Assembly (NCBI RefSeq): GCF_000764025.1
Contig: NZ_KN234753.1
Span: 1-64,000, forward strand
Length of the DNA: 64,000 bases
Direction: 5' to 3'
DNA from: Pseudohaliea rubra DSM 19751
Lineage (GTDB): Bacteria; Pseudomonadota; Gammaproteobacteria; Pseudomonadales; Halieaceae
Of the stretch, positions 2,636 to 3,286 are shown one piece after another; position 1 is the first letter of the stretch; the number at the start of each line of letters is the position of its first letter. Both the position numbers and the translations under genes were made by a program. The notes beneath the pieces were generated by a model. It had not been told where the DNA came from and searched no databases. It worked only from the letters and a program-made list of their open reading frames with translations.

Positions 2636-2724
2636 ACGACGCACTCCCTGTCAGGGGATGTTTGGCGAGCCCAGAAAAGGTTTATTGTAGCTTTTCGTGG
2701 CGGACACGTTGGTCGTCCTGTTCC

Positions 2725-2920
2725 GGGGCGAGCACGGGACACTTCCCTCAGTCGCTCCACGATATTCGCTTGGTGAGGGAAGTGTCCCGCGTTCGCCCCT
2801 GGCGCCTGGCGTACTTCGGGCTCGGCAGGGACCCAGCATGCGGTAGGGGCGGCTGCGGGAGGGTGCCCCCACCAAGCGAATATCGTGGAGCGACTGGGGG
2901 CACCCTCCCGCAGCCGCCCC
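2725..2920. repeat. Pair of inverted hairpin elements with one conserved loop and covarying stems
   Basis: Hairpin 1 has arms 2725-2750 and 2774-2799 (24 of 26 positions complementary, plus one possible G-U pair). Hairpin 2 has arms 2846-2870 and 2896-2920 (25 of 25 complementary). The 25-nt segment 2750-2774 containing loop 1 is the exact reverse complement of loop 2 (2871-2895). Read in the same orientation, the two units share the loop fully, while the stems share only about 15 of 25 positions (GGGGCG, CGGGA and CCC blocks) yet each keeps self-complementarity. A 46-nt spacer (2800-2845) separates them. The element lies in the 384-bp gap between the ferritin-like gene and rpsT and contains no convincing gene. 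It is not a simple intrinsic terminator because neither hairpin has a T-tract. Confidence 0.9.
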
Positions 2921-2936
2921 GGAAATTTACGATTAA

Positions 2937-2977
2937 CCAAAAAAAAGCCGGCGCTCCTTTCCGGGCGCCGGCCTTTC
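2937..2977 (-). terminator. Rho-independent terminator of rpsT
   Basis: A GCCGGCGC/GCGCCGGC stem (2947-2954 with 2965-2972) is followed on the minus strand by an uninterrupted T-tract (the A-run at 2939-2946). It sits about 45 bp after the rpsT stop codon. Confidence 0.85.
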
Positions 2978-3019: not shown

Positions 3020-3286
3020 TCAGGCGGCCAGGTTCTTGACCTGGGCGCTCAGGCGGCTCTTGTGCCGCGCTGCCTTGTTCTTGTGGATGATGCCCTTGTC
3101 GGCCATGCGGTCGATGACCGGAACGGCCTGCGTGTAGGCCTCGCGGGCTTTTTCCACGTCGCCGCTCTTGATCGCTGCGACAACGCCCTTGATCTTCGTG
3201 CGCACGAGCGAGCGCAGGCTGGCGTTGCGGGAGCGGCGCTTCTCCGCCTGGCGGGCGCGCTTGCGGGCTTGCGGTGAGTTGGCCAC
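3020..3286 (-). CDS. rpsT: 30S ribosomal protein S20
   Basis: 88 aa, the usual length for S20. The N-terminus [18 protein letters not shown] and the motif [12 protein letters not shown] near the C-terminus are diagnostic. S20 binds 16S rRNA early in 30S assembly. The gene is monocistronic, with a strong promoter just upstream and an intrinsic terminator downstream. It is divergent from the tyrosine phosphatase gene. The protein is highly basic and has no unusual features. Confidence 0.98.

Follow-up and report, generated by a model that had tools for sequence, protein, structure and literature searches.

The DNA analysed here, a window of 64,000 nucleotides from Pseudohaliea rubra DSM 19751, contains a MITE-like element with two inverted hairpins. 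These belong to a repeat family in which a 25-nt loop is nearly constant, the long stems are rewritten with their pairing preserved, and the constraint on pairing acts on a single strand, the one that the loop defines. We account for these features by a non-autonomous element carrying a separate hairpin module that would be read as single-stranded DNA, and whose shape would be kept by template switching and selection, an account to which we give, as a whole, moderate confidence. The hairpin family is seemingly undescribed: Rfam 15 gave no family at the gathering score, and no description of the loop or of the family was found in the open-licence papers searched, the subscription literature being mostly outside reach.

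A hairpin family with a near-constant loop

The element of the window (Table 1) is 260 bp long and extends beyond the two hairpins pointed out in the initial annotation. It abuts the T-run in the terminator that serves an S20-like gene (3020-3286, minus strand), which we take, by recognition, to be rpsT. The two loops were said to be perfect reverse complements, and the match is exact. It had also been observed that the stems differ from each other and are nevertheless self-complementary, which we confirmed: 9 of the 25 outer positions are changed between hairpins A and B (counted by eye), and the arms are 92% complementary in A (2725-2750/2774-2799) and 100% in B (2846-2871/2895-2920). The fold of 2700-2950, in which the two hairpins pair with each other, has a z of -11.4 against shuffles. 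A covariance model recovered both hairpins (E = 1.3e-18 and 9e-16) and gave no other credible match in the whole window. The corresponding locus of a genome of the same genus (G001) is occupied by one type B hairpin only, whose loop is of another version and oppositely oriented, so that the window site is without a clean empty counterpart.

Table 1. Positions of the element, its parts and its target context in the window
Feature	Position	Strand	Description
Whole MITE-like element	2679..2938	.	260 bp; ends from comparison with other copies of the genome
Left terminal inverted repeat, degenerate	2679..2700	+	GGTTTATTGTAGCTTTTCGTGG; consensus of the copies GGTTCATCGCGGATTTCCGGGG
Right terminal inverted repeat	2917..2938	-	GGTTAATCGTAAATTTCCGGGG on the minus strand; inner end runs into the foot of hairpin B
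Hairpin A, type ..CTCA/TGAG..	2725..2799	.	26-bp stem, 24 pairs
Hairpin A loop	2750..2774	+	AGTCGCTCCACGATATTCGCTTGGT; CCAAG reading on the minus strand
Spacer separating hairpins A and B	2800..2845	.	sequence
Hairpin B, type ..CCCCA/TGGGG..	2846..2920	.	perfect 26-bp stem
Hairpin B loop	2871..2895	-	hairpin A loop sequence on the minus strand; CCAAG reading on the plus strand
Target context: intrinsic-terminator-like hairpin and T-run	2939..2976	-	downstream of the S20-like gene; sequence

The initial annotation proposed searching the genome for the loop, with the view that a loop present nowhere else, together with relatives lacking one or both hairpins, would point to a one-off event. The search for GTCGCTCCACGATATTCGCTTGG (23-nt loop core, up to 3 mismatches allowed) returned 43 occurrences in the 3.2 Mb of P. 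rubra and 0 for the reversed control; the covariance model counted 70 copies versus 0 in G001, where the pattern search gave one loop. Scanning one genome per species yielded at least 111 stretches, and the carriers among the matches listed are Luteimonas, Lysobacter, Thermomonas, Halioglobus and other Halieaceae, Burkholderiaceae MAGs (Burkholderiales) and Zeimonas, a few matches being chance-like (e.g., L128). The 368 other genomes of the class, outside the carrier lineages, gave only 2 weak matches, and the exact loop was absent from 2.9 million viral contigs. Carriage by phages or plasmids was rejected, partial matches in phage and plasmid records being at chance level. A linked autonomous gene was rejected too, because clustering of the ORFs around the hairpins gave no common mobile gene, only core loci such as hslV/hslU/xerC and lpxH.

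Three main versions of the loop (GTCGCTCCACGATATTCGCTTGG, GTCGCTCCCCGATACTCGCTTGG and GTCGCTCCCCGATACACGCTTGG) differ at positions 9, 15 and 16, and rarer variants are changed at 13 and 14, in the triplet between CGA and TCG. The loop is nearly always the tip of a hairpin with a stem of about 20 bp or more (177 of 192 loops have at least 15 of 20 stem pairs). The proposal of a repeat family combining one loop with many different, well-paired stems was borne out by 56 sequences with different stems, in which 95.8% of the cells are paired versus 50.5% in shuffled ones, 494 stem cells show changes on both sides, the covariation score reaches 1.079 versus 0.207 for the shuffle, and 18 of the 25 loop columns show no variation across orders. 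The pairing over 25 nt that was suggested between the two loops is unnecessary to explain the family, since many copies consist of one hairpin. Some copies (L012, L014, L038, L040, L046) form a sub-type with 14-20 extra bases, such as GCCTGCCCGGCCGG, separating the stem from the loop core. Five copies of Lysobacter concretionis (L083, L118, L140, L151, L155) have in common a further small hairpin (CCACCGGA..TCGGTGG) and the motif GGAAAnCAAAAGCG, both located inward of the main hairpin.

In four Thermomonas genomes, a hairpin separates hslV from hslU; its stem differs from genome to genome yet is paired, and its loop is constant. The compact hairpin pair near lpxH in Thermomonas likewise combines different paired stems with a constant loop. 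At two other loci, two genomes each carry the hairpin with opposite loop orientation; one relative shows a shorter hairpin without such a loop (L316), and in others the site is bare. The palindrome of L316, from Thermomonas beijingensis, has an outer stem similar to that of L314 and lacks the conserved loop, which reflects either loss of the loop or insertion of a loop module into a pre-existing hairpin in the relative. The xerC-hslV-hslU region of Lysobacteraceae is a recurrent site (L078, L096, L098, L099, L120, L123, L124, L130), the hairpin being placed in the hslV-hslU gap in Thermomonas, whereas two Lysobacter have it upstream of hslV. Hairpins were also found in frame within a long fused uvrA-like gene of Zeimonas arvi (L209, 3007 and 4883) and of a Burkholderiaceae MAG (L210, 2782, 3073 and 4942), at seemingly corresponding positions. 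The pairs spaced by 2 kb in these two genomes had been considered as flanks of a transposase, a reading that was dropped since they are located inside uvrA.

The mobile carrier in Pseudohaliea rubra

The outer flanks of the P. rubra copies follow a common pattern, GGTTCATCG..TTTCCGGGG, and three of the flank pairs, 388-461 bp apart in this genome, correspond to intergenic regions of 67-107 bp in G001, that is, to empty sites. The clearest copy (L007), 262 bp long, has inverted ends GGTTCATTGCG.../...CGCGATGAACC and a perfect 8-bp target duplication, AAACTTTT, and the target is single in G001, again an empty site. For 8 elements together, the test of an 8-bp duplication gave p = 0.012, mostly due to L007; the 8-mers flanking the window copy are identical at 5 of 8 positions (CCAGAAAA/AAAAAAAA).

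The consensus of these copies, GGTTCATCGCGGATTTCCGGGG, has ISL3-like terminal inverted repeats, the window copy being more degenerate. An ISL3 insertion sequence of L. concretionis, bordered by a perfect 8-bp duplication (TTTTTTAT), has ends (GGTTCTTCGCGGAAGTCCGGGG) agreeing with the consensus at 18 and 19 of 22 positions, and the ends of one Halieaceae ISL3 match it at 16-18 of 22. An intact ISL3 transposase is absent from the P. rubra genome (assembly 98.8% complete), which has only two C-terminal fragments; G001 has no ISL3 transposase fragments, and none of the ISL3 loci examined carries the hairpin. The two fragments are found at L240 and L245; the ends near L240 (GGCTCTACC) differ in type from those of the MITE. 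Together, these data suggest that the 260-bp element, with its ISL3-like terminal inverted repeats around the two inverted hairpins, would have been inserted at the T-run of the neighbouring terminator and most likely mobilised in trans by a transposase of the ISL3 family (DDE).

ISL3-like ends lie near 19 of 35 hairpins in P. rubra, near 5 of 28 in other Halieaceae and near none in Luteimonas, Lysobacter or Thermomonas. Since most hairpins elsewhere are devoid of these ends, the hairpin is a module in its own right. It is older and more widespread than its carrier in P. rubra: mobility of the ISL3 kind would explain the amplification in this genome, not the hairpin module. The initial annotation had raised the idea of an undescribed family, mobile or regulatory; the family and its mobility in P. 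rubra are supported, but the carrier there is of a known kind.

The folding strand and its possible reader

Preserved pairing under stem change had been interpreted as selection on structure. The pairing is indeed kept, but it is no proof alone, as arms can also be made alike by template switching; it is in the strand-asymmetric spectrum of mismatches that a signal of selection is found. Mere tolerance of mutations in one arm predicts as many mismatches of each kind as of its mirror on the opposite strand. The counts on the CCAAG-reading strand (loop CCAAGCGA) are 147 G.T versus 26 A.C, 50 G.A versus 6 C.T and 27 G.G versus 10 C.C, a strong bias to the stable types. The non-redundant ratio of G.T to A.C is 60:15 (binomial p = 1.6e-7, an optimistic value as the sequences are related by descent). 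The G.T excess exists separately in P. rubra, other Halieaceae, Luteimonas, Lysobacter and Thermomonas; the remaining mixed set shows no excess (7:7). The ratio is 30:7 at copies whose CCAAG strand coincides with the mRNA strand versus 41:7 at antisense ones. No clear bias to the lagging strand was seen (46:34). The bias being keyed to the loop strand whatever the gene direction, pairing is constrained on one loop-defined single strand, and neither on the host mRNA nor on both strands equally. G-containing transversion mismatches are also enriched, so that plain cytosine deamination does not provide an explanation. A strict Watson-Crick constraint, as for a double-strand cruciform, was rejected because the strand-split mismatches put pairs of the G.U type on the other strand. 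The energetics of DNA fit the spectrum somewhat better than those of RNA, which is suggestive only.

From this constrained single strand we infer that the near-invariant loop is most likely recognised in single-stranded DNA by a putative protein, the strand recognised being presumably ACCAAGCGA-nnn-TCG-n-GGAGCGACT; no loop-reading protein was found. The sole role of the stem would be to present the loop as a folded single strand, and its sequence would consequently drift. Template switching during replication would copy mutations from one arm to the other and might flip the loop, and selection would purge any fold lacking stability on the active strand. Template switching homogenises the arms of inverted repeats and inverts their spacers (PMC8604942), and it maintains hairpins (PMC8794818). 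It would explain why paired changes occur without intermediates and why the loop has opposite orientations at corresponding sites, although these orientations could alternatively come from independent insertions. Since template switching fails for the frozen loop and for the strand bias, we added to it a recognition of the CCAAG strand in its folded form. More tentatively, the family might represent an undescribed cross-order module of single-strand DNA hairpins, with a loop read by a conserved protein, several mobile carriers and stable residence in or between core genes.

An element acting as RNA, whether on its own as a small RNA or within mRNAs, with a loop that binds an RNA-binding protein or another RNA, seems unlikely to us. 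G.U-like pairs are favoured on a single strand, as RNA would have it, and many copies are located between co-directional genes, e.g., hslV-hslU, a site at which CCAAG is on the mRNA strand in all the Thermomonas seen. However, the strand bias is alike at sense and antisense copies, the two orientations between co-directional genes are about equally common, unlike the fixed orientation of a cis-acting mRNA hairpin, G.A and G.T are enriched to the same degree, a better fit to DNA than to RNA, and no Rfam family reached its threshold. We find it somewhat less plausible still that the hairpins are functionless, their arms being paired by template switching alone and their loop frozen by recent spread or by transfer from lineage to lineage. 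Homogenised arms, flipped spacers (PMC8604942; PMC8794818) and a loop orientation that varies at orthologous sites all agree with such a process, which does not predict a loop-keyed strand bias and is at odds with a loop that remains constant in Thermomonas orthologues with rewritten stems and keeps most of its columns invariant across orders.

The initial annotation stated that terminators, REPs and attC sites do not explain the hairpins. A REP or REPIN element mobilised by a RAYT (Y1 HUH) transposase is very improbable, despite the dispersed intergenic inverted pairs, the two stem types and the single-strand folding which recall BIMEs and REPINs: no Y1_Tnp (PF01797) was found in P. rubra, with its 70 copies, in Zeimonas, in L. 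antarcticus or in other carriers, the covariance model gave no hairpin near the 21 Y1 loci examined, and a GTAG foot is not conserved across lineages, being present in P. rubra before type B stems only. Moreover, REP stems measure 5-13 bp and their loops 2-20 (PMC3733652). Ordinary transcription terminators duplicated by chance are hardly credible: the P. rubra copies do adjoin terminators, but the window copy already has a separate one beside it, the hairpin feet are without T-runs, and stems of 20-26 bp carry a 25-nt loop common to several orders.

Comparison with known repeat systems

The palindromic repeats described earlier have short stems and short or variable loops, whereas this family keeps a long loop frozen across orders and has a long stem that is rewritten, orthologous sites included. 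As a sequence-only test of the folding strand, the asymmetry of mismatches between strands could be used on other hairpin repeats. If a protein reads the loop, the family would be a new case of folded-single-strand recognition; if none does, these loci would be a natural laboratory for the evolution of bacterial hairpins by template switching.

The element of P. rubra resembles ISL3 insertion sequences and derived MITEs by its ends (GGTTC(A/T)TCGCGGA..CCGGGG), by its T-rich target at terminators and by the 8-bp duplication of one clear copy (L007). It differs from them in having no internal transposase gene, and the hairpins of Luteimonas, Lysobacter and Thermomonas are without such ends. In integrons, one folded DNA strand of attC, with a variable stem, is recognised. 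Unlike attC, the constant part here is the loop and not the foot boxes, the copies are dispersed with no cassette array seen, and inspection by eye shows no sequence common to the flanks and feet of different lineages that would correspond to a core box. REP, BIME and REPIN elements are likewise intergenic palindromic repeats, often in inverted pairs of two types, with strand-specific folding; here there is no RAYT, no conserved GTAG tag and a far longer stem, and the loop, instead of the stem, is constant (PMC3733652, PMC8266576). The CGTC-tagged repeats have stems of 8-9 bp, loops of 4-5 nt and a terminal CGTC tag (PMC3733652), whereas in the present family both stem and loop are longer and the tag is absent. 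As for these repeats and for the Rickettsia palindromic elements, no dedicated transposase is known (PMC3733652), and the family shares with the latter a few copies in frame within genes, here uvrA.
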